From positions 33,751,606 to 33,815,605 of the forward strand of contig NC_030387.2 in NCBI RefSeq assembly GCF_001625215.2: a DNA stretch of 64,000 bases. Reading direction: 5' to 3'. Positions 10,756 to 56,870 of this stretch are shown here, in pieces. This DNA comes from Daucus carota subsp. sativus. Its lineage: Eukaryota; Streptophyta; Magnoliopsida; Apiales; Apiaceae. The position numbers and the translations under genes were made by a program. Positions within the stretch are counted from its first letter, which is position 1; every line of letters begins with the position of its first letter. The notes under the pieces were generated by a model, which was not told the DNA's origin, did no database searches, and saw only the letters and a list, made by a program, of their open reading frames with translations.

Positions 10756-13700
10756 TCATCTCTTCCTCTTTGGAGTGAGCTTCTTCTTCTGATTTGCAAC
10801 TGAGGAGCTGCATTGAGTTCCTTGACCTTCTGTCCTGGAGCTACCTCCCATCGTATTTGGAATTGTTTGCTGGTCTTGCTCCCTGCTTACATTTTTTGTT
10901 GATGCATTGCCTCCTTGCTGCTGTTGTTTCTATATTCTGATAGATGTAGATTTATTTTGTAAAAATATAAGTAATATGTGGATTTATTGATGTAATATGT
11001 AGATTTATTGTTTTTGAATAGATGTCCAAGAAAGCAGCAGTTACCTTGACTGGACAAGTTCTTGAGTTATGTCCAGGTTGGTTGCAAGTTTTGCACACAC
11101 ATGTAGATTTAGGAATAATAGGCAACCTCCCATCCTCTGCTGCCTTTTTGGCCATGTCATTTCTCTGTGAAAACAAGCAACAATTAAAGAACTATACTAT
11201 TTAACAATTGCAAATTATAGGTTCAAAATAAAAACAAGAATTAATTGTACCTTAGTTGTACAAATTCTAGTATTATGACCTCTTGCTTTACAATAAGTGC
11301 AATTAACAATTGTGCCTACTTTGCTCAATTTTGTTGGATCTTGAGGAATGTCATTCCTTGTGGTCCTTTTTTTCTTTGGTCTTCCAGCAGGGGTCTTCAC
11401 ATTGGGAGGCAAAGGCCTTGGCTCAGATGCTTGTTCCCAAAATTCTGGCCCCATAATTGGCTCCAAGGTACAATTGTAAAGCTGCATTTATCATTAATTT
11501 GTATTATCATCAAATTGTGCAGTGTGTGTAGTCTATACCTAAGTGTGTAATGTGTAAAGTATACCTTCATGTACAACTCCTTAGTGTAGAAGCCATGTAT
11601 ATGATTCCCCCATGGTTCATTCCTAACTGCTATGCATGCACAAGCATGATAGCAGGGAATTCCAGATAGATCCCATTTTCTGCAAGAACAACTTTTTTTG
11701 TTTAAATCCACGACTAGCTCATGGCCACCATCTGTACAAGTGACTAGATATGATGTGCCTCCTGACCAGGTTACAACACAATTGCCAGCGTGATGAATTG
11801 CCCTATAATTTGCAAAAAAAAAACACATATTAATGAACTGTGTTAAGGTATATGATAATGTCCACTCGATAGTCAGTAAGCATAACTTACTTGTTCAATT
11901 TCTTAAGTGCATTAGGGCATATCACAGTGTCCCTTGCTACCATTTTGTCTCTTCTTACTTGGATCCTTTTCATCACTGATTTATGCAGCTCCCTAAACAT
12001 GGTAATGATAGGCAAGTCCCTATACTTTCTTATACTACTGTTAAACACTTCACAGTGATTGTTAACAAACATGTCACTGTGAACAAGTGTCCTAAAAGAA
12101 GATCTTGTCCATTGACTCTTTGGCTTAGCCATGAGCCACTCATGACATCTAGATGCAATCTACAATAACATTTAATTTTAGACAACTAAATCAACTATGA
12201 AAGAAAAATAAACAAGAAGAAAAAGTTTAGAAGAAAATTACACCTCTTTCATCTTGTTCATATGAAGGTTAAACTCCCAATTTGTTGTAGACCTAGCAGC
12301 TTTCCAAAGCAACTGCCTTAGAGCAATTCCCTTAAACTCCTTGTGCATATTTTGGTACAGATGCATAACACAGAATCTGTGTTCTGCATTTGGTACAATC
12401 AGCTCCAATGCATTTATGAGTCCCTACAAATAATTTTTAGACCAGTTAGCAGGAATTAATAATACACACAAGTAATTAAATAATGCAGACAAGTAAATTA
12501 ATAATACACACAAGTAATTAAATAATGCAGACAAGTAAATTAATAATACACACAAGTAATTAAATAATGCAGACAAGTAAAATAATAATACACACAAGTA
12601 GTTAAAATGCTCAAGAAAGGCACACACCTTCTGTCTATCTGATATGAAGGTCCAATCAGCATCACTTTGAATCTTTAAATCCTGACTCAAGAGTTCCAAA
12701 AACCAAGTCCAAGACTCTGTTGTTTCTGATTCTACCACTGCCCATGCAATGGGGTACATGCCATCATTGGCATCTACCCCAACTGCAGCCAATAACTGTC
12801 CACCAAAGGGTCCCTTTAGGTGGCAACCATCTAACCCAACTAATTTTCTGCAGAACTGTACAAATGCATTCTTCAAAGGTCCCAAACATATGTACATTCT
12901 CATAAATCTTCCTCTCTCAGTCCCTGGTTCTGGATCTTCACAGAGAATCTTAACAGTGGAATCAGGGAGTATCATCTTCAGTTCATAAGCATAGTCCCAC
13001 ACCTGAGCAAATTGTGCTCTGTGAGTGCCATTTATCTTCAACAATGCTCTTGTCTTGGCCCTGTACACAGCATGTTTTGACACCTCACACTTGAAATCAT
13101 TGAATATCTTCTTATGAAAAGCAGCTACAGGCCACGAAGGATTCATTCTTATTTCCTTCTCATAATGCTCCGCAAGCCACACAGAATTAATTTGTTTCTG
13201 ATGGAAAGTAGGCATGCATGTATGCTTATTCACCATAGTCCTTATCTGATAAGTTTCACTCTTATTAAATGGAGAGGCATACACAGTCCATTTACAAGGC
13301 TTCTTACATACATACTTCACCTTCCGGCCGTAGTTTGGAACAAGTTCCACTGGTCTCCTCTCTACAATGGCATGAGTCCTTACAGCCTTCCTAAATACCT
13401 GTGAATTCTTAAACAACATACCATTCTTAAAAACAGGTCTTTCCATATCTACATCTTCATTGAACACGTGAAAGTCATCGTCTTCCTCATCGGTAGAATT
13501 TGCTGCCATTCTTTCTTCATCACTCCCAGCATAAACACTATCATCATCAGTATGAACACTATCATCCTTCTCTGGTTCCTCTTCAGGGATATCATGTTCT
13601 TCAAACACTGTTTTGTCAATATTTTTCTCAAAAATCAGATCATCATCGGTGTCGTCCTTGTTGGAGGCATCTGAATGCCAGGTTTCATCATCACTGTCAC

Positions 13701-14566
13701 TCCCATTCAATTCATAATCCTCACTATCAGCAGGATCAGAAAAGTCTTTATCCAAACCCTCAAAGTCCCTCAATTCTTGCTCTAGATCAATTTCTTGTTG
13801 AGTAGAATCAGGAAAAGGGTTGCCCATATGTATTTCCTCTTGATTAGGAGCCCAATCCCCATCTAATTCTACATTTAAGGGTGCACATATCCTGCTCACA
13901 AATAATTCTACATACCTATTTATCTTAGGCCTCTCTTTGTTGGTTATAAGTGTACACATTAGCATAAGTTCTTCATCAGTCTCTAACTCAAACAAATCAT
14001 TCTCCATTAAGGTACCTGGCAGCTTATACCACAATTTGTAATACCCACCCCTTGCACCACATTCAACCAACATACTATTTATTTCTAGCAGGCTAATAGC
14101 ATCAGAGTCACAGAAATCCACATACACCACAAAGCCACCAATGTATTTCTTAGGGTCTTCTTGCATTTCACCATTACAGTGCATTTTTATGGTGAAAAGT
14201 TCATCATCTAGCATAAAAGTGACAAAATGACCAAAAATTCAGATGCAAATACCAACAAATAGACACAACCAACAACATCAATATTGTATCTATTTAATTA
14301 CTACATAACAAATACACATAGCTTTGTCATAAAACTGTCTGGGCAGATTAGTTTTGTACTCAAAAAACAGAATTAAACTACAACACATAGATTACCACAT
14401 AATACATACACATAAACAAGCTTCAAACACAAAAGACCCAGTTTTTATGATCATTATGAACATTATATGCATGTAACAGTCGAGATTAGTAGATACCTGT
14501 GTATTCCGGACATTCGTAAGGCTTGTAGATGTCTTGATCTTGCTTCGCCCTCAGAATCCATTCCAT
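10756..14566 (-). CDS. MuDR-family (mudrA-like) transposase
   Basis: Seven coding exons keep frame from ATG 14214: 14214-12628, 12423-12244, 12159-11891, 11802-11565, 11481-11251, 11164-11045 and 10929-10756 (932 aa). A better start may be ATG 14566, with exon 14566-14497 spliced to 14207 (about 953 aa; joint PEYT-DDELF). Domains in the 932-aa numbering: an acidic region at about 130-260, a MuDR-type DNA-binding region from about 270, then a DDE core with D462 (GLDGCHLKG), D526 (ISDRQKG) and E579 (TTNWEF), with the family's CxxH (CVMH) between D526 and E579. It continues with a SWIM zinc finger (CSCRKWDLSGIPCYHAC) and two CX2CX4HX4C knuckles (CTYCKARGHNTRIC, CKTCNQPGHNSRTC), and ends in a basic tail (KKKLTPKRKR). 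The MULE catalyses cut-and-paste transposition in the nucleus. No stop or frameshift was found in any exon. Confidence 0.92.
12446..12605. repeat. Minisatellite in transposase intron 1, about 42-bp unit, nearly 4 copies
   Basis: Units alternate ACACACAAGTAATTAA and GCAGACAAGTAAATTA blocks in tandem. They lie wholly within the intron between 12628 and 12423, so they do not alter the protein. If the intron were retained, the frame would read through the repeat and end there. Confidence 0.9.
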
Positions 14567-21656: not shown

Positions 21657-21844
21657 GTTTAGATTAGACCCGGCAAATTTTCACACGACACGAAAACGAC
21701 ACGAAAATTTAGTGTTTGTGACACGAAAAGGTATACGACACGAAGTACACGACTGAGATGTCGTGTCGGTTTTGTGTTTATCCTTCGGGTACACGACACA
21801 ACACGAGGTACACGAAATAAATATAATTTAATAGTTAAATATTA

Positions 21845-22124
21845 CTCCCTCCGTCCCTTCCATTTCTTTACACTTTCCTTTTTGGGGTGTCCCATCCAAT
21901 TCTTTACATTTCAAAACTTACCAAAAATAGTTAATGGGTCCCACCACTTCTCCACTTTTCTTTCCTTTTCACAATACTTTTACTCCACTATCTTCTTTTT
22001 ATACATTAAAAATCAATGGGTCCACCACTTCACCCACTTTTTTTCCTCTTTTCCAATACTTTATACATATTTCTTAACCTCCGTGCCCAACCCATTTGAT
22101 AAGAAATGGGAGGAACGGAGGGAG
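21845..22124. mobile_element. Stowaway MITE, 280 bp, complete
   Basis: Termini CTCCCTCCGTCCCTTCC and the complement ending GGAACGGAGGGAG are flanked by TA on both sides. It is internally AT-rich with GGGTCCCACCACTT motifs shared with other copies here (34040, 46681, 49287). Open frames across it are accidental. Confidence 0.9.
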
Positions 22125-34784: not shown

Positions 34785-36940
34785 ACTAAACAAGTTCTAG
34801 GAACCGTATATCATATATATTTTAAGTGATGAATAAATTAGATAACGTAAGCATATTGTAGTCATTTTTGAAACAGATGGTGTGATTTATATTATTCTTC
34901 AAATAAAATGGTAGAAAATATTTATTTTACATTAAAGAAAATCATAAACACATGAAACACAAAATTTGTTTTGGATTCAGAAAAAAAATCATATGCAAAT
35001 AGCTATCAGTTGCCTTATAAAATAAAAGTTGATTTTTTTCTAATCTAACGGTGCTTATTTGTTTAATATACGATCCAACAGATGATAAGTTTTGGACGAT
35101 AGAACCATGCGATCAAATTATCCCTTTAGGCTTATTGTATATAAGTATACAATTATATAATTTCCAACTTTGCGAAAAGAATTTGTAGTATTTTTGGACC
35201 GCATCTCTTATCCTCCTCCTTGTCCTTGAACCCAAATTATTCGAATTATTAAGATACAAGTACATGATAACATTATTTGCATTGTATAAATTTGTAATCT
35301 CGTAACCGTATAATATATGTTCACTCATATCGGTGTGAATAATTACAATCGAGTGTGCAATTCTAAATCTCATGAATCAACTTGTTTGTCTTTTACTTCA
35401 TTACTAGAATTTGAATCCGATTATATACAATATAATCTGAATTTCGACTAAATTCCCCGGCCGAATAGTTTGTTTGTGCCATTATCTCTGGTCTAAACGG
35501 CCACAAAAGACCACTTGTCCTCGTACATGCATACCATGATTGGCGGGCTTCATGCGCTTCTCAATTTCAAATCGGTGACATAACGGCCATTATTAAGAGC
35601 AAGTTCAAGATGCCCGTATCATGTCCTAAGTTATAATTTAGGGTGATTGATCTAGCAATGTCCTAGTGATGCTTTATATCATTAAGACAACCTCCCCAAG
35701 CCCTATTTTTGGGACACATCTCACCTTGTCCTATTCAATATTTTATTATAAATTCTCATCATACTCTCTTTCTCTCTCTATTTTTATATTATTCTTAAAT
35801 GATGAAAGAGAATCTTTAATAATAAAATATTGAACATAATGTGAGAATAAGACACATTGTTGGAGTTCAAGTTAGTAAAGTATGTCCTAAATTACTAGAA
35901 CATAATATTTTATATTATATTTGAGGCATCAACTAGGACACTCTTGGACTTGCTCTAAGACGAACAAGACGTAATAACATGTGAGATGACACAAGAGTAA
36001 GGCTTAAATTTAAATAAACCATTCAAGTTTGCTTGTTTGTACATGTCAACCACTGAACAAATAAACTCGATAGGGTTACTATCCAAGTACTGAAATTGTA
36101 CAGTACAACCATTGACAAAGATAATTACTCTGGTTTGTGAGAGAGTAGTTCACACTCTCTGACTTGTGGAGGTGAATGGTGCAAAAACTTCTGACTGGCC
36201 CAAAAAATAAGGCTTCACTGCTAAAAAGAAAGTAACATTTGAATCATACAAATATCTTTGTCGACACGAGATAAAAGTGCATCTCGAATTATCATGACAT
36301 TCTTTACCGTTCCGGTGTTTTAAATTTATGTGTTTCCTAACTTTGTTTAAAATTATTTTTATATAAATATTAGAGTTAAGTTCCATGTAGTTCACATATT
36401 TACTGTAGTACCGTAGACCACGTATATTCTGCAACTATAAAATGGCATAAAAACATTATAAAATGTATGAAACTTGTTATTCTGTGAAATACATTCTATA
36501 AATATCACTATTTCATTAAAAATATTAAAAATTATTTATGTTCGACAAGTAGAACGCATATGTTCTGTAATATGTAAATATGTTCAGCAACTTAACATGT
36601 TTTACAGAATAATGTGTTTTTCACTATTTAACTTGTAGAATGTTTAGGATTGTCCATTAATTGTATACATACCAAAAATATTAGTAGGAGTTAGAGGAGT
36701 ATAAAGTGGGTGTAGTGCAACGACAATCCATTATTGTCTTTAATGACAGGATATCTAGAAATAGCGGGTATATTACTAGTTTTGAAAAAATATATAATCG
36801 AGCATGCGTCCAAAAAAAACCCCGAATAAAAGTGAATGTTAGGAGGGAGTACTAAACTGCCATCTTCCAAGATAACCTAGGAACACCAGAAAGTACGGGA
36901 AATAACATTTTCCAAACGATAGAAGCATGAAACTTTTAGG
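34785..36940. other. Intergenic region, no gene seen
   Basis: AT-rich sequence with one Tourist-like MITE (35597-35955). Frames at 35113-35373 and 36150-36434 have no recognisable features. Confidence 0.45.
35597..35955. mobile_element. Tourist-like (PIF/Harbinger) MITE, 359 bp
   Basis: Inverted termini GAGCAAGTTCAAGA and TCTTGGACTTGCTC are flanked by TAA on both sides, the 3-bp TWA duplication of PIF/Harbinger. A relative is at 51373-51752. Confidence 0.8.
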
Positions 36941-37316
36941 CTGTTGTGGTCAAAGTTTACATTGATTTTCAAAACGTTGGCTAGAGTTCCAAATTCTCAA
37001 AAAGATGGCCAAACTTTGACTTCGCTTTTTAAAAGTGTGGCTCCCGTTGAATGTCCCTAACGGGAGCCTGACAGGAGCCACATTTTTGAAAAGCGGACCA
37101 AAATGTAGCCACTTTTATGAGAATTTGGAACTCATTTTTACCCTTTTGTTCATTCCAAATTCTCAAAAAATTGGCCAAATTTCAGTCCGCTTTTCAAAAA
37201 TGTACATATAATGGGAGCCACACTTTTAAAAAGGGAAGCCAAAATTTGGCCATCTTTTTGAGAATTTGAAACTCTGGTCAACTTTTTAAAAATCAGTGTA
37301 AACTTTGGGTACAACT
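36941..37316. mobile_element. MITE with long (about 100 bp) inverted repeats
   Basis: Left and right sides match after complementing, through AAAGTTTACA, a TTCTCAAAAAGATGGCCAAA block and AAAGTGTGGCTCCC. No ORF and no clear target duplication. Long arms on a short element suggest a MULE-type MITE, but this is inference. Confidence 0.65.
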
Positions 37317-37347
37317 TTGAAATTTACTCTATTTTAAATAAAGATCG

Positions 37348-37349
<2 letters not shown>

Positions 37350-37424
<75 letters not shown>
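37350..37424. repeat. (AT)n microsatellite, about 75 bp
   Basis: Uninterrupted TA dinucleotides directly left of the TA-inserting element. Confidence 0.95.
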
Positions 37425-37430
<6 letters not shown>

Positions 37431-37853
37431 CACTCCATAGCATACCCTCTTATATGGAGTGACGTAGCACACCATTATAAATATATACATAATATATATT
37501 TTATTATATTTTTTATAAAATATAATTGCAAATTTTGATTATTAAACCGAAAACGAAATTATACATTTTTTTAATTCCAAAGATCATCTAAAATTATGCA
37601 ATATCTCAACATGATTCTATAACAGAATAATAATCATCCAGAATTATTCTGTTGTAGAATCAGTTTCGAAAATATACTTTTTTTAATCAAATTTTAAGTG
37701 TTAAATTACTTAAAATAGATTTATTTTATAGTATTCTATATTAGAATCACGTTTTATTAGTATTCTATAACAGAATTTATAATAAAAATTGAAGATTTAT
37801 AGTGGCGCACTATGTAACTCCATATAAGGAGTCCCTCTCTGGAATGTTGGCCT
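37425..37853. mobile_element. MITE inserted in an (AT)n tract
   Basis: Inverted arms share CTTATATGGAGT and TAGCACACCATTATAAAT-type blocks. Both ends abut TATATA runs, so it inserted into or near a TA microsatellite, as Micron-like MITEs do. Confidence 0.6.
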
Positions 37854-39262
37854 ATATATATATATATAATAAATTGTTAAAATTAAATTACTATATCACT
37901 TTAAATATGAACAGTTATAAAATTTATGACATAATAAATATCAATAAATAACTAATATAATAATAAATAAACATTAAATAATATTTTGATATTAAAATAT
38001 ATCGATTTTCACCCTATTAATCATTCTGATTAATTAATCTCTAATTTTCGATTAACTCTAAATTTGTAACTCAGCCGATTAGGTTCGATTACCAACTTCT
38101 CAAACACTGGTTTTAAACCGTTAATTTAACACTAAGTAAATATTGTGCAGAGTTTAAAAAATAAAAATGACAATCATTTTGACTACTTATATATTTTAAC
38201 CACTAATGTGTAAAATATATATATACGAAGTCAACAAACAGTAATTTGGTTTATTTGTAATATGTTACTGTAGTTGGGATGTTGCTGAGGGTTGAATAGG
38301 ATGGAGATTGCGGAACAGGTTTAGAAATTGAAATAATATGAAAGTGAGCAAGGCGTGACGTGATTTGGATTCACATGCTATAATGATTCATGTACCGTGC
38401 GAGAAAAAAGAGCGGAGAGAAACTTGACAATTTTGCATTACACTGAACCGCAGGTGTACAACAAACACCGCTGTCTTGAGTTCATTTTTCCGGTTGAAAC
38501 TGACTACATTTTTGTCTACTAAGCTCCTGACAATATAATCAAGCAAGTGAGAAAACTACAAAAGTCTATGTTACCTGCCAATAGCAAAGCATCCGAGATG
38601 GAAAATCATTTATCTTTTTTTTTGTAATATTATTACTGAGATATAATTATTTACAGTTATAAGAATTATTTTGATCAAGTTATTTTATTTTATGGAAGAT
38701 GATTTGCTTTCTAAATTTTTTAACTTATATATGTATGTATATAATAATAATAATAATTAGTAAGGCTGATTACAAGGAGGAGCTGATTTTTTAAAATGAT
38801 CTTTTATATTTTATAAAATCAAATTTAAAAATAAAATAAATTACTAAAAAGAGTTAGATTTTCAACTTTTCGTATTTTAAATTATAAGTCGGAGTAGACT
38901 GACTTATAAAGTCTTCACATAAATAATACGAATGAGTTGTTTGTGATTTATAAGTACACAAAATTGTATTTTTCAGCGGCATTTTAAGTCATTTACAAGA
39001 AATTTAAATATCAAAATAAGCTACAGAGCCAAAAGCCGAAAGTTAAGAATTTTGGCCGAAAGTTAAGAATACAGGGTCGGTCAAATGAAGTTCACTGGGA
39101 TGTGTCATGCTGAACATACGAGTAACATAGTTAATTTCCTTACAATCACTGCAGCTTGTGTATCACTATCATCAATGAAAGCAAGCATTCATATCTATGA
39201 ATGCTAATATGTTCCTACATACACAAGCTAGCATTAATATGTCTGTGATCCTTTCTACAAAC
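37854..39262. other. Intergenic region, no gene seen
   Basis: AT-rich. A GATTAATTAATC-type tract near 38010-38080 may be part of an old element. Confidence 0.45.
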
Positions 39263-41987
39263 TTACTGTTTGGCTAAAAACATCGCCCCTTTTTTTGTCC
39301 AGAGGCGCCAGATTCTTGAGTGGGATGGATTTTCTACAGGATCAGCTTCAGTGACAGCAGCTGCTGCAGTGTGGTATCTTTCTACCATCTCATGATCCAT
39401 TATCCACTTCAGACCTTCGGATGTCTCGGTCAATATTGGGGTCTGGAACGCCTGAGCATGATAAATTTATTTTTTTATCCAGCAGAGACATAAAAACCTA
39501 ACTTAAAGTAACAAAAATATTGGATTGAATTTTTACTTGTCCACGGGGACTTGTACTTGATGTTGTCCCCCTCTGAATCACACGTGGAGAATAACTATCA
39601 GGTAGTACTGAGCTTTCCTCTGGAGCAGTGGAAGAGAACTCTTAAAACAGCATACATAGAACATAAAAAACGACATGAAGCAGAAATATCAAAACATGAA
39701 AAACGAAAAACGACATGATGAAGAAATGTCAATTTCACCTCTGGCTGTACTTGGAAGAGACTGACCTGAGCCAGGACTGCTCTCCTGCCGTCTATGGCTT
39801 CTTCCCCTTTGCTGAATCCGGGCCGCAGCTAAGAAAACTGCTGCTGCGACCCTTTGCTTAATCCGGGCCACAGCAAAAAGAATTGCTGCTAAGAAAAGAG
39901 TGACTCCACAAACGATACAAATGATTGCACCAGGAGCATAATCTTTTGTCTTTTGCTCCTTTTTCGGACAATATGGAGGACTGCTACCATTGGTAGCAGT
40001 CGTTGCCTCGTTAGATGGTGGAGGTGGACTAGTGATATGAGGTGTGAAGTCAAACCAGGGGAAAAACCAAGGTATATCACCTGTTCTTCTATGAAATCTG
40101 TTTCCTCCTAACCTATGAATACGATTAAAGATATACAACTTATCTACTTGTGTACTTGTAAAAGAAAAAAAAAACAAAACCTAGGAGATAATGCTTCTTA
40201 CCATAGATTAGGTATTCCTCGGAAACTAGGTGGTATTACACCGCTAAAGTGGTTATCTTGGATATCCCTGGTGACATATATAGTGAGCTGACAGAACAAA
40301 AATATGAAATACGTAATAAATACTTTGTAAATAAATGATCTAAATCATACAAATCTGAGAGAGGGAGTTCAGAAAGAAGGGTGACAGATCCAGTAAATCC
40401 ATTGCTCTCTAAGAACCTGCAGACCATTGACAGCAAATTGGGAAACCTCTTTGAATTGGAACTTATAATAAGAATTGAAGAAATGAGGAGGGACAACTCA
40501 CAATTTGCTCAAATTAATTAAGCCTTGAAATGAACTGGGTAGATCTCCAGTGAAATTATTGTATGACAAATCCCTGTGACATGATTATGAATTTCATAAA
40601 ATGTGAATCAATTATTCCAACTACAGATAGTATATTAAAATAAGAATAAACGTCCTAAGATAATAAGGACTGGTTATACAAGTGGGAGTAGTTCTGCAGC
40701 TGCCATTAAATTGTCATTCAAACTATATGTTGCACATTTAGACTATTTTATTAGGAGTACTTCTCGAATAAAATTACAAGAGGTGAAGAAATATTACATT
40801 TCTTTGAGGTTTGTCAGTCCTGTGAAAACGTCTCCAATTGGTCCAGATAGTGAGTTGTGGCTCACATTTCTGTCGAAATATATACATATAGTTAAATTAC
40901 CATATTCTATCCTAGTGAGCCAAATTCTGCCATTTTCAGATAACGATAAACTTACAAAAGCTGAAGATGCTTCATGTTTGTCAAGGAGTACGGCAGGTTC
41001 TGGCTAAACATATTGTGTGCTAGGTTCCTATTAGGAGAGGGAAATATATGAAATAGAAAAATGTAATGCATAACATGATCATTAAGGAGACTCCTTACAA
41101 GTAAGTGAGATTAGCCGGTAGGGCGTATGGAATCGGACCCTGAATCCGGTTCGAACTCATGTCCCTGGTACAAATATTCACATAAACCAGAAAAGATAAA
41201 TATACAATATCAGCACTTCAAATTTTTACAAGTTGGTTTTCCAGAACAACTTACAGCTTCTTCAAGTTCCGAAGATCAGATAGTCGGTACCCTAGGTTAC
41301 CACCAAGCTGAAGCCCAGGAATTTCTCTGCAATTCAATGATATATGTTATTTTTTTATGGCTTTATTAAAGTTAACAGAGCAGAACATAAACGAGTATGT
41401 AACAGTTTTTACAATTGAACCACTGATGAGCCCTTGCAGGTAACTCCTGTCCATGATTCTGCACATGGATCCCCGCCATATGTCCTCCATCCCTTGAGCT
41501 GTGACGGAATATTCAGGGTTCTGTGCAGGTCTTGCAGTGACTTGGCTGCATAATTAAGCCAAAACACTCAAAAGTCTACTGAATGCTGGTAATCTTTTGG
41601 TCTAGCACTTCTAAACCCAAAACGCATTGACTAACGAAGTGTTATCTACTTGACACCGGTACCCCTAACCTCAAATTTGTGCTCATTGTATAAAATCAGA
41701 ATCTCAACAAAGCGATTAAGAACTATGCTCATAAAATCAATATTCACTCCCAATCTCAACAAAGTGACATATGAGAATAAGGAATATCAACAAAGTGAAT
41801 TAAGAACTACGCTTATAAAAGCAAATATTAAACAACAACTAATCAAAGAGAGATAATACATGAATAAACGTCGTCACATACTTTCGTGTTCATCAGTCTC
41901 AGCACTAGCCTGGAGACCTAGGGCTAAGAAGACGAGAAGAGTAAAATACAGCCACAAACTCCTCGCGGACATAGCAACTGGATACAT
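39263..41987 (-). CDS. STRUBBELIG-receptor-family LRR protein lacking a kinase domain
   Basis: Twelve exons keep frame: 41987-41882, 41545-41413, 41326-41255, 41164-41099, 41027-40956, 40869-40798, 40573-40502, 40416-40351, 40267-40202, 40112-39739, 39640-39537 and 39451-39263. This gives 463 aa, or 458 from the second ATG at 41972. A signal peptide (SLWLYFTLLVFLALGLQASA) leads to the SUB-type N-cap (GWRTYGGDPCAESWTGVTC). Six or so LRRs follow, mostly one per 66-72 nt exon (DMSSNRIQGPIP, NLAHNMFSQNLP, NVSHNSLSGPIG, DLSYNNFTGDLP). Then come GGNRFHRRTGDIPWFFPW, a Pro-rich linker, and one membrane span (GAIICIVCGVTLFLAAILFAV) followed by basic residues. Normal SRF proteins continue into a large kinase-like domain; here a tail of about 150 residues ends at TAA 39263-39265 instead. 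It may act as a membrane-anchored receptor-like protein or be a 3'-truncated gene. Confidence 0.85.
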
Positions 41988-42609: not shown

Positions 42610-42798
42610 GCAATATGAGGCTCCTTCAAATTTCTAACCACCCTAAACACAATCTTTACAAAACTAACCACCTTTTTTTTCACTTCACAAAACTAACCAC
42701 CCTAAATTCCTCAAGCCACGGGCGAACACAGCAAAATAACCCTTCCATGTTCGACCCAGCCAAGGGCGAACATAGCATGAATATAGTTATCTGTTCGC

Positions 42799-42824
42799 CC
42801 TTGGCAAGGGCGAACATAGTTACT
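42799..42824. repeat. GTTCGCCCTTG/CAAGGGCGAAC palindrome, left arm
   Basis: A short near-perfect palindrome with related half-sites at about 42716-42774 (GGGCGAACA) and mirrored in the right arm at about 46440-46520. Another variant (GTTCGCCCGAAGAGAGGGCG) lies near 43464, mirrored near 45780. Confidence 0.8.
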
Positions 42825-43644
42825 GCTCGGTCATACAGTCGTATGGTTTGTGCTGTTGAGGATGAACACGTCACTCTCTTTATATATTTACTTATTTAGG
42901 TAGGGGTTTACATTTTGTTTGTTAAAGCATATGATCTCCCATGAAGAAATTTTATGAGAACTGCACGTGGAACGGTGTAAGCATGTATTTCCTCGGTTTC
43001 AATTTATATTTTCAATTTTAAAAAAAATATTTTAAATTAATTATCCATTTTAATTTTCAATACAAAATTATATTTTGAAAGTCAATTTTACTTCACATAT
43101 CTCTTGTTTATATTTCTTAGATCAATCTTCTGTTATTTATAATTTTTTACTTTTTTTTGACAAAGTGAACATTCACTTTTCTTAAATTGTGGTTTTTTTG
43201 AAAGTAATCAAAGTATACATTAATTTGACATAGATGGAGTATTTACTTCTTACTAGTGACATAGTTACTGCTAATCACAGCACACACAAAAGCGAGCAGG
43301 GAAATTTAGATAAATTTAAAAGTAAATTTAGAGAAATTTTAGAGAAATTTAAAAGTAATTTAAAGTACAAATGTCAAATTAAAAAATACATAATATAATA
43401 TCATATCAATATTTCGAATATAATAAATAAATGAAAGCATAATGAAAGAAGCTAATTAGTTATGTTCGCCCGAAGAGAGGGCGAACATATAATGGGTTGT
43501 TTTGTAAATATTGAATTGATATTATTTTATTGATTAAAAATGTCATGAGTTGAAGTGATAATTGAGTAAATTTGTTTATATATAGTTAGAACTAAGGCCA
43601 TACACATACTCGAACTTCTCATCTGCTCATACTAAAAACATCTC

Positions 43645-44040
43645 ATGGACAAGCAGAAAAAATCTAGAAAGCTTGACGACGGGATGGAAGAATGGAGTTG
43701 TAAAAAAACGAGAAGACTTGTTTCAATTGCCATGGAAAGGGATGCGGAGAAGATGAAGTTTGCTACGGAGATGCGGTTGTTGGAGTATCGAGAAGCGAGA
43801 CAGGGCAAACACTGGGTGCCGACTAAGGATGAGACCCATATTGAAGTTCTGCATGGAGTCGGTCGCCCGCTACGTGAATATCACTACAGAAAAGACCGGG
43901 ATATAAATGATGCCTTCTTGAAAGGAAAGATCACGGATGAGGAAAGGATAGGTTTGCTGAGAGAAAGCTCGGCAGAATACGCTGCAAAAGTTAAAGTCAT
44001 TGAGAAATCAAATTTTGATGCTTATGCAAAGCAGTTGTAA
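43645..44040 (+). CDS. ORF A, left arm of foldback MULE (131 aa, unknown)
   Basis: Complete frame, ATG to TAA: MDKQKKSRKLDDGMEEW at the start, then a charged, helix-prone segment (SIAMERDAEKMKFATEMRLL), a middle VPTKDETHIEVLHGVGRPL and an end EKSNFDAYAKQL. No membrane span, signal peptide or known domain is visible. The right-arm copy at 45224-45619 encodes the same protein. A TATATATAG motif lies about 65 bp upstream. It could be a captured host gene or an element-specific protein. Confidence 0.55.
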   Translation: MDKQKKSRKLDDGMEEWSCKKTRRLVSIAMERDAEKMKFATEMRLLEYREARQGKHWVPTKDETHIEVLHGVGRPLREYHYRKDRDINDAFLKGKITDEERIGLLRESSAEYAAKVKVIEKSNFDAYAKQL

Positions 44041-44144
44041 TTTTGTTTGTGCTAAGTTTTTCCATTTTAATGTTTTCAAAAGAAATAATAAAGATGCATT
44101 TATTCGTACTTATATTTATTGGAATAAAATACAAATGATATTTG

Positions 44145-44703
44145 TCAATCAGAATCATTGGCACCGGTTGAGTCTTCGTCAGACATGTAGAAATCCGAAA
44201 TGTAATTTGGATTTTCAAGCAGTGCACATTCTTCTTCGAAAGACATTTCTCTTCTGCTAGCAGTTGCCGAGTCTCTGGCCAACTGATACATGTACATACG
44301 ACATCGGCGCAACAACATTCTGTTGTTCTCTTCCCTGATCTGCTCCACTCCTGCAATCACTTTCATTCGATATTCACCCCAACTACCCTGGAACCTATAT
44401 TCCGGATAAATAGCTAGCGAGTCACGGGCCGGGAGTTTTGCACCTAGAGCTATAAGATCATTTCTCAACTGGTCGGATTCTTCAAGACGATGAGCCCATT
44501 CGCGCCGAACACCAGCATTGGAAGACAAACACATAACATGAATAACATAACACATCCTCAGCATCCCATCGAGATCCATCACCTTTCATGGTCTTCCTCA
44601 TTCTTCTTACTCTTTCGGCATGCTTCGTCTCCATTTCTGCCACTTCCGCTGCCTGCGACCATTTGAGGTCACTTATTTCATCAGCAAGTTTGTTGATGAC
44701 CAC
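44145..44703 (-). CDS. ORF B with upstream part, left arm and spacer of foldback MULE (unknown, frame broken)
   Basis: The spacer encodes VINKLADEISDLKWSQAAEV and then a helical charged run to MRKTMKGDGSRWDA. In this arm a 46-bp extra piece after GATGCTG throws the frame off. After it, the frame GVRREWAHRLEESDQL resumes and runs to the TGA at 44145. The C-terminal part is acidic (SFEEECALLENPNYISDFYM). The right arm lacks the extra 46 bp and reads through the joint. No known domain. Confidence 0.5.
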
Positions 44704-44705
44704 AG

Positions 44706-45119
44706 TTGAACGGTTGTATAGCTAGCGGTGATGGATCTCGATGGGATGCTGGTGTTCGGCGCGAGTGGGCTCATCGTCTTGAAGAATCCGACCAGTTGAG
44801 AAATGATCTTATAGCTCTAGGTGCAAAACTCCCGGCCCGTGACTCGCTAGCTATTTATCCGGAATATAGGTTCCAGGGTAGTTGGGGTGAATATCGAATG
44901 AAAGTGATTGCAGGAGTGGAGCAGATCAGGGAAGAGAACAACAGAATGTTGTTGCGCCGATGTCGTATGTACATGTATCAGTTGGCCAGAGACTCGGCAA
45001 CTGCTAGCAGAAGAGAAATGTCTTTCGAAGAAGAATGTGCACTGCTTGAAAATCCAAATTACATTTCGGATTTCTACATGTCTGACGAAGACTCAACCGG
45101 TGCCAATGATTCTGATTGA
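44706..45119 (+). CDS. ORF B, right arm of foldback MULE (unknown, 5' part missing)
   Basis: Open from about 44706 to TGA at 45117-45119. From GDGSRWDAGVRREWAHRLEE onward it matches ORF B of the left arm without the 46-bp extra piece. No ATG precedes the matching part in this arm, so it is probably a 5'-truncated copy. It has acidic and charged helices and no recognised domain. Confidence 0.45.
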   Translation: MNGCIASGDGSRWDAGVRREWAHRLEESDQLRNDLIALGAKLPARDSLAIYPEYRFQGSWGEYRMKVIAGVEQIREENNRMLLRRCRMYMYQLARDSATASRREMSFEEECALLENPNYISDFYMSDEDSTGANDSD

Positions 45120-45223
45120 CAAATATCATTTGTATTTTATTCCAATAAATATAAGTAAGAATAAATGCATCTTTATTATTTCTTTTGAAAACATTAAAAT
45201 GGAAAAACTTAGCACAAACAAAA

Positions 45224-45619
45224 TTACAACTGCTTTGCATAAGCATCAAAATTTGATTTCTCAATGACTTTAACTTTTGCAGCGTATTCTGCCGAGCTTT
45301 CTCTCAGCAAACCTATCCTTTCCTCATCCGTGATCTTTCCTTTCAAGAAGGCATCATTTATATCCCGGTCTTTTCTGTAGTGATATTCACGTAGCGGGCG
45401 ACCGACTCCATGCAGAACTTCAATATGGGTCTCATCCTTAGTCGGCACCCAGTGTTTGCCCTGTCTCGCTTCTCGATACTCCAACAACCGCATCTCCGTA
45501 GCAAACTTCATCTTCTCCGCATCCCTTTCCATGGCAATTGAAACAAGTCTTCTCGTTTTTTTACAACTCCATTCTTCCATCCCGTCGTCAAGCTTTCTAG
45601 ATTTTTTCTGCTTGTCCAT
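45224..45619 (-). CDS. ORF A, right arm of foldback MULE (131 aa, unknown)
   Basis: Same 131-residue protein as 43645-44040, on the opposite strand. Both copies are uninterrupted, which points to a recent duplication or gene conversion between arms. Confidence 0.55.
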   Translation of the reverse strand: MDKQKKSRKLDDGMEEWSCKKTRRLVSIAMERDAEKMKFATEMRLLEYREARQGKHWVPTKDETHIEVLHGVGRPLREYHYRKDRDINDAFLKGKITDEERIGLLRESSAEYAAKVKVIEKSNFDAYAKQL

Positions 45620-46680
45620 GAGATGTTTTTAGTATGAGCAGATGAGAAGTTCGAGTATGTGTATGGCCTTAGTTCTAACTATATATAAACAAATTTACTC
45701 AATTATCACTTCAACTCATGACATTTTTAATCAATAAAATAATATCAATTCAATATTTACAAAACAACCCATTATATGTTCGCCCTCTCTTCGGGCGAAC
45801 ATAACTAATTAGCTTCTTTCATTATGCTTTCATTTATTTATTATATTCGAAATATTGATATGATATTATATTATGTATTTTTTAATTTGACATTTGTACT
45901 TTAAATTACTTTTAAATTTCTCTAAAATTTCTCTAAATTTACTTTTAAATTTATCTAAATTTCCCTGCTCGCTTTTGTGTGTGCTGTGATTAGCAGTAAC
46001 TATGTCACTAGTAAGAAGTAAATACTCCATCTATGTCAAATTAATGTATACTTTTTACTTTCAAAAAAACCACAATTTAAGAAAAGTGAATGTTCACTTT
46101 GTCAAAAAAAAGTAAAAAATTATAAATAACAGAAGATTGATCTAAGAAATATAAACAAGAGATATGTGAAGTAAAATTGACTTTCAAAATATAATTTTGT
46201 ATTGAAAATTAAAATAGATAATTAATTTAAAATATTTTTTTTAAAATTGAAAATATAAATTGAAACCGAGGAAATACATGCTTACACCGTTCCACGTGCA
46301 GTTCTCATAAAATTTCTTCACGGGAGATCATATGCTTTAACAAACAAAATGTAAACCCCTACCTAAATAAGTAAATATATAAAGAGAGTGACGTGTTCAT
46401 CCTCAACAGCACAAACCATACGACTGTATGACCGAGCAGTAACTATGTTCGCCCTTGCCAAGGGCGAACAGATAACTATATTCATGCTGTGTTCGCCCTT
46501 GGCTGGGTCGAACATGGAAGGGTTATTTTGCTGTGTTCGCCCGTGGCTTGAGGAATTTAGGGTGGTTAGTTTTGTGAAGTGAAAAAAAGGGTGGTTAGTT
46601 TTGTAAAGATTGTGTTTAGGGTGGTTAGAAATTTGAAGGAGCCGCAATATGATCCTCCATCAGTGTCAGCCAATTCTTTA

Positions 46681-46941
46681 CTCTTTATGTTCGCTTTGGG
46701 CGCGGAGATTAATAAATATGTATAAACTAGTGAAAAAAGAGAAAGAAAAATGGGTGAGTAGTGGAACCCATTGATTTATAATGTATAAAAGGGAGATAGT
46801 GGAGTAAAGGTAGTGTGAAAAGGGAGGAAAAATGGGAAAGTGATGAGACTCATTGACTATTTATAATAAATTTTAAAATGTAAAGAATTGGATGAGACAT
46901 CCCAAAAAATAAACAGTAAAGAAATGGTGATACGGAAGGAG
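46681..46941. mobile_element. Degraded Stowaway MITE
   Basis: TA-CTCTTTATGTTCGC at the left and ACGGAAGGAG-TA at the right. The inner part shares GTGGAACCCATTG-type sequence with other Stowaway copies here. Confidence 0.65.
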
Positions 46942-47374
46942 TATAATTTCATGGAGGACTGAAATCAAAAAACAATTTGCAAAAATATAAAGACTAGTAT
47001 TCACGCCCGCATTGATGGGCCTGTGCAAACTAAAAATTGTTTTCCTCTTAAATTGTGAACACTTTTATGAAGAAAATGTCCTAACAATCGGTGTAAAATG
47101 GTTGGATAGATGACGGTTAGTTAAAAACTGAAGTTTGTTCTTCAAGATACAGGAACAGAACAAACAAACAAAGTGGATACTGTCATACATTAAACCAAAA
47201 GTACAGTTGCTTATTACGGTGAGTTCTAAAAACAGTAAAATACAGTCATGTTCTAATCCTTAGATTCAATTAGAGGTTAAGTTGACATTCGAGATCCCTG
47301 CAGTGTTGTACGTTGACATGGTGGCCTGTTATTAATAAAAATGAAGTTGACATTAGAAAATTAAACTAAGTGAG
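46942..47374. other. Intergenic, no gene seen
   Basis: AT-rich sequence between the Stowaway and the RPA-like fragment. Confidence 0.4.
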
Positions 47375-55807: not shown

Positions 55808-56870
55808 ATGAATCGACCCTCATAAAAATTTAGGATTATTTATCAACTTTTTCTTGCTAATAATATATCACGATGTACCATTATCATGACCCGACCGTCA
55901 TATATGTACTCAGTACTGCATTCGTCTTAAATTAAATGAGTTACTTTAGAGACATAATTTAAGATGATGATCATTTATTTTCAAAATTTATTTTTTTAAT
56001 TTTCCTTTCATAAATAAATTTTCATTAGCAAAAACAATATTTTATTTTAAATTGTTATTTGTAAAATACGTCTAATTTTAGAAATTTTGTTGCGACATCA
56101 AAATGCAAGACAGTGAGGAAAAGCTAAAGCACGTGCATCGGTGCATGAGGTGTAACGACAGCATAAACAGTACTCCCTCCGTTTCAAAATACATGTCCAC
56201 TTTAAAAAAATATATTTGTTTCAAAATACTTGTCCACTTCAACTTTCAATGTACATTTATATTTCCAAAATCAACTCTCTACCACATATTACTAAGTTAT
56301 ATTTCCAAGATCAACCACACACCACATATTATGTTCAATTAATGACTTAACACACCTCTTTTTTCTCACAATCCACTTTTCTTAAACTATGTGATTTTTT
56401 TAAAGTGGACATGTAATTTGAAACGGAGGGAGTATTTAACACATTGACTAATTATTAAGTCAATAATTCTAACCACTCACGTGAAATGAACAAGTGAGAA
56501 GAAACAAAAACACAGTGGAGAGTAGAGTAGCAGTAGCTGCGTATCTGTAGTTTACATAACGTGCACATTTTGCCTACATATTGATTATCTTAGCATTCAC
56601 CATTAATCGCGCAATTACTTTCAACTTGTTCATTCATTTCTTAATATGAACTACTCCTCTAACAATGCTTATCAAATTTAAAAATTAATTATCGGTTGAT
56701 TACTTGATTCATGTACAGTCTAGCAGGCTGTTTGTTCTACGTACTAGATTTAAAATTACTTTATTGAAAAAATATTTATTTTTGTAAAAAATCAGAAATC
56801 AATTTAAAATTAATTAAACAAATAGATTAAACTCTCGACATGTTGAATTATAAATTACAATTTTAAATTA
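55808..56870. repeat. Segmental duplication, copy B
   Basis: Direct counterpart of 33611-34784, about 22 kb away. Interrupted by a different Stowaway (56173-56432) placed after GACAGCATAAACAG, whereas the copy A Stowaway sits before that motif. Confidence 0.88.
56173..56432. mobile_element. Stowaway MITE inside duplication copy B, 260 bp
   Basis: CTCCCTCCGTTTCAAAATACA and the complement ending GAAACGGAGGGAG, with TA on both sides. Clean ends suggest a recent insertion. Confidence 0.9.

Follow-up and report, generated by a model that had tools for sequence, protein, structure and literature searches.

A foldback element with near-identical 1.9-kb arms in the carrot genome, a candidate for a Mu killer-like locus

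How plants first recognize and silence new transposons is still debated, and Mu killer is a well-known trigger of silencing in maize. Both ends of Mu killer are described as deriving from the same end of MuDR, with an inverted partial copy of mudrA between them; a hairpin of about 4 kb has been proposed, the centre of the locus resisted amplification and how it acts is a matter of dispute (PMC3440606). Here we describe a 4025-bp element of similar architecture in carrot, Daucus carota subsp. sativus. It lies in a stretch of 64,000 nucleotides (assembly GCF_001625215.2, contig NC_030387.2, positions 33,751,606 to 33,815,605 of the forward strand), hereafter the window, in whose coordinates all positions are given. 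It is probably a non-autonomous foldback form of a DNA transposon of the Apiaceae that carried several genes and was most likely Mutator-like; one end of this parent would have been duplicated in inverted orientation.

Several other transposons offer points of comparison. In plants, target site duplications of 9–11 bp combined with long terminal repeats mark Mutator-like elements, or MULEs (PMC3310237). Among them, the Abermu elements possess extra fast-evolving open reading frames (ORFs), termed ORFR, of unknown function and in opposite orientation to the transposase gene (PMC9168764). The VANDAL elements of Arabidopsis encode VANA, VANB, and VANC, of which VANC is an anti-silencing protein. 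They, too, carry extra genes, and a dense 9-base motif bound by VANC is found mainly in the non-coding DNA of the family (PMC5735166, PMC10398659). Tm1 combines long inverted repeats containing short internal subrepeats with a 9-bp duplication (PMC3169594). In carrot, a survey of miniature inverted-repeat transposable elements (MITEs) reports many Mutator-like MITEs, and the word foldback is absent from its text (PMC8227079).

The foldback element extends from 42619 to 46643, exactly the interval proposed by an earlier, sequence-only reading of this DNA. It begins with GGCTCCTTC and finishes with GAAGGAGCC (read directly); its first bases are GGCTCCTTCAAATTT, and the opposite end is the reverse complement of GGCTCCTTCAAATTT. 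A perfect 9-bp duplication, GCAATATGA, abuts both outer ends, which bears out the view of a single, mobile-looking unit with matching ends. No empty site of the insertion was seen within the window. The two like ends and the intact duplication suggest that the element transposed as a unit; the duplication also fits an origin in place. That nearly the whole element is inverted repeat was likewise correctly recognized: only a 143-bp loop and two insertions or deletions (indels) of 46 and 2 bp are without a mirror copy, as is typical of foldback elements. The repeat finder returned two adjoining inverted repeats of 1309 and 592 nt, giving arms of about 1.9 kb each. The longest perfect inverted repeat measures 896 nt. 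Mononucleotide shuffling of the element, repeated 20 times, never gave more than 16 nt, and the maximum was 74 nt among 13 other tiles of 4025 bp taken from the window, with those that overlap the element and the final 3.6 kb excluded. The 74-bp perfect inverted repeat, the longest in these 13 tiles, lies in tile 36226–40250.

The arms are 99.6% identical over 1900 columns (blastn). Their alignment shows six substitutions (42673, 42773, 42941, 43046, 44106, and 44499), a 2-bp indel at 43208–43209, and the 46-bp indel at 44513–44558. The short repeat at the edges of the 46-bp stretch (table 1) points to a deletion by slippage in the right arm. Beyond this stretch, towards the loop, the arms pair for a further 25 bp, which leaves the true loop at 44584–44726. 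Substitution rates are of the order of 7e-9 to 1.3e-8 per site per year; with 6 substitutions in 1900 positions, and setting gene conversion aside, the arms would have parted about 0.12–0.23 million years ago.

Each arm contains an intact ORF A, whose best match is the annotated carrot protein P0023. Nine of the ten proteins matching ORF A come with a named organism, which is always carrot, and eight belong to the ACET3Z carrot annotation, where they are spread over at least seven different contigs, as expected of a dispersed family. Two other matches are also 131 amino acids long, at 70% and 62% identity. The sequence-only reading had credited each arm with two ORFs. This holds for ORF A, whereas ORF B turned out to be a fragment: in the left arm it is 97.6% identical to residues 30–152 of the 152-residue carrot protein P0001 (tblastn), and since both arms lack the start and residues 1–29, a complete gene is ruled out. 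Both ORFs were said to belong to no recognized family, and neither ORF A nor ORF B reached the curated cut-off of any Pfam family. For each of them, the alignment (nine of the ten matches for A, P0031 being left out) gave no match by sequence among solved structures, and the AlphaFold models (mean pLDDT, the predicted local distance difference test, 71.0 for A and 70.6 for B) matched no fold of the PDB at an E value of 0.001 or better. The profiles of A and B did not match each other. Pattern matches to B in viral and prokaryotic contigs (37 and 70, respectively) yielded no confirmed relative.

Beyond what had been noticed before, the loop carries the tail of a third gene, C, and the arms carry a nested MITE and an array of short motifs. 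The C tail is 96.5% identical to residues 152–208 of protein P0015 (tblastn), which contains two GRF zinc-finger stretches (PF06839). It is located on the same strand as B, directly upstream of it in the left arm. The right arm retains just the last few codons of C, fused to B: the seven codons that extend the B match to residue 23 read GDGSRWD, the end of C. As this fusion is found in both arms, the C tail already lay against the middle of B in their common ancestor.

The matches of A, B, and the C tail that bear an organism name point to a family within the Apiaceae. C was searched solely through its tail, within a query joining this tail and B; 10 of the 22 matches of the joined query bear an organism name, as do 9 of the 29 obtained with the B profile (7993 candidates sharing most words were scored), and all are Apiaceae. 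Carrot and celery both belong to this family. The named matches of the joined query and of the B profile come from these two plants and from Heracleum, likewise of the Apiaceae. Two carrot gene models, P0019 and P0028, unite A with the end of C in one gene; in them ORF A continues into the tail of the GRF protein, and they perhaps represent recombinant members of the family. The celery model P0046 combines part of B with a GRF-like stretch (hhalign E value 3.4e-5, probability 72%). On this gene-model evidence, we read A, B, and C as three accessory genes travelling together in one transposon family. No description of such an A-B-C family in carrot was found in the literature searched, the scope of which left out most subscription journals. 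In two further proteins a resemblance to known domains was considered and not retained, the N-terminus of P0038 looking PMD-like and an extension of P0024 like a transposase C-terminus; neither was supported by Pfam or by NCBIfam, which is built for prokaryotes, and neither had a convincing match to the window.

The outer 0.2 kb of the element holds most of its short repeats: three copies of CTAACCACC, within the outer 83 bp, and the major part of a GGGCGAACA array. The window contains 12 copies of this 9-mer (0.13 expected from shuffles). All lie inside the element, in both orientations, and none falls within A, B, or the C tail; given the mirror symmetry of the arms, they amount to six independent sites. 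The nested MITE, which we take to be Stowaway-like, is flanked by TA in both arms and must therefore be older than the inverted duplication. Part of it matches 56170–56314 at 71% identity (blastn), the best stretch of its similarity to a further, related Stowaway-like MITE at 56170–56438. A degenerate Stowaway-like MITE (46653–46948, approximate limits) adjoins the right target site duplication, and the sequence 46696–46949 matches 21837–22090 at 82%. The coordinates of all features of the element are listed in table 1.

Table 1. Features of the carrot foldback element (window coordinates; string matches are to short sequence strings only)
Feature	Position	Strand	Remarks
Target site duplication, left copy	42610..42618		GCAATATGA, 9 bp; read directly
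Left arm	42619..44583	+	Pairs with right arm except 44513-44558; repeat finder, alignment, folding
CTAACCACC, three copies near the end	42634..42701	+	Mirror copies 46561-46628
Subterminal GGGCGAACA motif cluster, left arm	42716..42820		Mirror cluster 46443-46542
Nested MITE flanked by TA, in both arms	42988..43239		Mirror copy 46025-46274; ends read by eye
Inverted pair of GGGCGAACA, upstream of ORF A	43460..43490		Mirror pair 45774-45804
TATA-like string	43577..43584	+	68 bp upstream of ORF A start; mirror copy 45680-45687; string match
ORF A, left copy	43645..44040	+	131 amino acids, intact; full-length match to P0023 at 98%
ORF B fragment, left copy	44145..44516	-	Residues 30-152 of P0001-type protein, no native start; tblastn and alignment
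Stretch unique to left arm	44513..44558		46 bp; 6-bp repeat CAGCAT at both edges
Protein C, last 57 residues	44551..44721	-	Mostly in loop, then ORF B fragment; P0015 match
Loop without mirror copy	44584..44726		143 bp; repeat finder and arm alignment
Right arm, inverted copy	44727..46643	-	Repeat finder, alignment, folding
ORF B fragment, right copy	44748..45119	+	tblastn extends to residue 23
ORF A, right copy	45224..45619	-	Translation identical to left copy
Target site duplication, right copy	46644..46652		GCAATATGA, 9 bp; read directly

The element had been labelled a MULE. The GCAATATGA duplication on both sides falls within the 9–11 bp of MULEs, and the 1.9-kb arms correspond to their long terminal inverted repeats. 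The part of the label that lacks a counterpart is the transposase: the longest stop-to-stop frame of the element is 146 amino acids, and no transposase family was found in Pfam with ORF A, the joined C-tail/B query, or another ten frames from the left arm and the centre, these ten matching no Pfam family above the cut-off. Non-autonomous MULEs are by definition without transposase. With the structural features present and no transposase family found, membership is probable rather than proven, and the parent family was most likely Mutator-like. Elsewhere in the window, a 604-amino-acid frame on the minus strand (12424–14238) has a MULE transposase domain (E value 4e-10). Near its C-terminal end this frame contains a short tandem peptide repeat, FNYLCVLLIYLSAL, which resembles a repeat expansion within the gene or next to it. 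Within the window, blastn revealed no match of the foldback element near this frame.

The closest parallel is Mu killer, as the earlier reading had suggested. The carrot element, too, has two copies of one and the same end, presumably that of a transposon, and a partial inverted duplication around a missing centre. Mu killer duplicates part of a transposase gene, whereas the carrot arms carry ORF A and the B fragment, with no transposase domain found; the carrot centre, unlike that of Mu killer, is sequenced, as a 143-bp loop. The likeness is one of structure, and silencing in carrot is a prediction. With MuDR and other MULEs the element shares the 9-bp duplication and long terminal inverted repeats; it differs by inverted repeats spanning nearly its whole length, by the transposase that was not found, and by A and B, which fall below the Pfam cut-off. 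The genes of MuDR are arranged convergently, as are those of the carrot element.

The extra ORFs can be likened, by description, to the ORFR of Abermu, although the carrot element is without the transposase. Similarly, the extra genes and the non-coding 9-mer array recall VANDAL. However, the terminal repeats of VANDAL are degenerate and its motifs share one orientation, whereas the carrot repeats are 1.9 kb long and 99.6% identical and the motifs occur in both orientations. Because its terminal repeats are not degenerate, we do not file the element under VANDAL. FARE and FB are foldback elements. With these and Tm1 the carrot element has in common long inverted repeats and, to some extent, short internal subrepeats; unlike in them, the subrepeats are restricted to the outer 0.2 kb and one inner motif pair, and the arms consist mostly of other sequence. 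The element appears as a good, recent-looking candidate for a Mu killer-like locus and not as a new kind of system.

The following scenario would account for this structure. A, B, and C would have been accessory genes of the parent transposon, in which a deletion or fusion brought the C tail beside the middle of B. One end, comprising the terminal repeat, the motif array, the nested MITE, and the stretch with A, part of B, and the C tail, would then have been duplicated in inverted orientation around the 143-bp loop; the new copy would have taken the place of the other end and of any transposase. As its two ends are alike, the resulting element could still be mobilized in trans.

A read-through transcript forming double-stranded RNA of nearly 2 kb had been anticipated. 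A strong hairpin is predicted: the full element folds at −3497 kcal/mol, compared with −908 to −939 kcal/mol for three mononucleotide shuffles, and the predicted hairpin has 1916 cross-arm pairs. Read-through from a neighbour may be unneeded, as the TATA-like string upstream of each ORF A suggests that transcripts directed inward might be enough. Whether started at a putative promoter of either ORF A or read through from outside, such a transcript would contain a duplex of up to ~1.9 kb, from which Dicer-like enzymes could generate small interfering RNAs (siRNAs) matching A, the B fragment, and terminal parts of other family members; the C tail, being in the loop, would be largely spared. A role of the element as a source of hairpin-derived siRNAs is plausible on this model. 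Since such siRNAs would match A, B, and terminal sequences of its relatives, the element should silence its own family, as proposed for Mu killer. By analogy, we consider this outcome possible and put it forward tentatively.

Several observations weigh against this reading of the element and of its family. The authors of the Mu killer study favour a mechanism based on short antisense transcripts, to which the long hairpin may contribute, so that Mu killer itself may not act through a long hairpin, and the analogy leaves the mechanism unsettled (PMC3440606). The absence of any transposase family from the frames searched also counts on this side. The links of A to C and of B to C come from gene models and not from DNA, and models can fuse unrelated exons; a second celery model, P0043, gave no support for the B-C link (probability 0.6%). 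The arrangement of the genes is not consistent either: C is upstream of B in the element and downstream of it in P0046, so the parental order is unsettled, and A and C share a strand in P0019 and P0028, whereas the element has the adjoining C tail on the strand opposite to A. Finally, just three of the ten ORF A matches have 131 residues, the other seven being shorter, longer, or fused.

Among the alternatives, it is quite conceivable that the element is inert debris, that is, a chance inverted duplication passively mobilized or fixed, untranscribed through the loop, and with no regulatory role. AATAAA strings occur on both strands between A and B, including one at 44087 downstream of the left ORF A (string matches only), and such poly-A-like signals may halt transcripts before the loop. 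Moreover, the arms differ at so few sites that selection cannot be assessed. Conversely, the near-identity of the arms, the integrity of ORF A in both of them, and the intact 9-bp duplication speak for recent formation or activity, and long inverted repeats are usual sources of siRNAs in plants. A different origin, by which a transposon of Pack-MULE type would first have captured A, B, and C as fragments of host genes and later been inverted, with siRNAs directed at host genes instead of its own family, is unlikely in our view. It could explain why the element has no transposase domain and why A and B have no Pfam family above the curated cut-off, and many relatives of B lie on short contigs, some of which are perhaps transcripts. 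However, A is present at eight listed loci of a single carrot annotation, on at least seven contigs; gene models repeatedly contain A together with C and, with less certainty, B together with C; and the two full-length paralogues of A, at 62 and 70% identity, are as expected of maintained genes. No host parent gene was identified for A, B, or C, their named matches being from Apiaceae only. A captured gene as the target, as suggested earlier, looks less likely than accessory genes proper to the family, on the indirect evidence of the multiple loci of A and these named matches.

Still less probable is a foldback-type DNA transposon outside the MULEs, with a 9-bp duplication and composite terminal repeats. 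The ends of the carrot element, with three CTAACCACC and the GGGCGAACA array, are composite like those of foldback elements, and the foldback-like Tm1 also has 9-bp duplications, although the title of its report reads Mutator/Foldback (PMC3169594); against this stands the association of 9–11-bp duplications and long terminal repeats with plant Mutator-like elements (PMC3310237). As for one arm having been duplicated by the assembler, large palindromes are error-prone. Yet the arms differ by six substitutions and two indels, which rules out a simple assembly duplication, the structure being not merely one arm assembled twice, and the 9-bp duplication lies exactly at both outer ends. An artefact of this sort is thus extremely improbable.

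The derivation of the element by inverted duplication of one transposon end remains our preferred explanation, and it opens a broader, much more speculative prospect, again by analogy. The hairpin would silence an Apiaceae transposon family equipped with the accessory proteins A, B, and a C with two GRF fingers, and one of these three proteins would bind the GGGCGAACA array in the manner of VANC and VANDAL. We regard this combination as improbable as a whole; were it true, the foldback element and the accessory genes would be opponents in a single arms race, the former acting to silence and the latter to counteract silencing. Should a full-length element confirm them, the A-B-C set and the motif array would extend transposon-encoded anti-silencing beyond Arabidopsis. 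The interest of the element is that of a complete and testable Mu killer-like locus, which also points to an accessory gene set with no description in the literature searched. A compact locus of Mu killer design in carrot, with near-identical arms and a sequenced centre, would make the hairpin model testable with small-RNA libraries.

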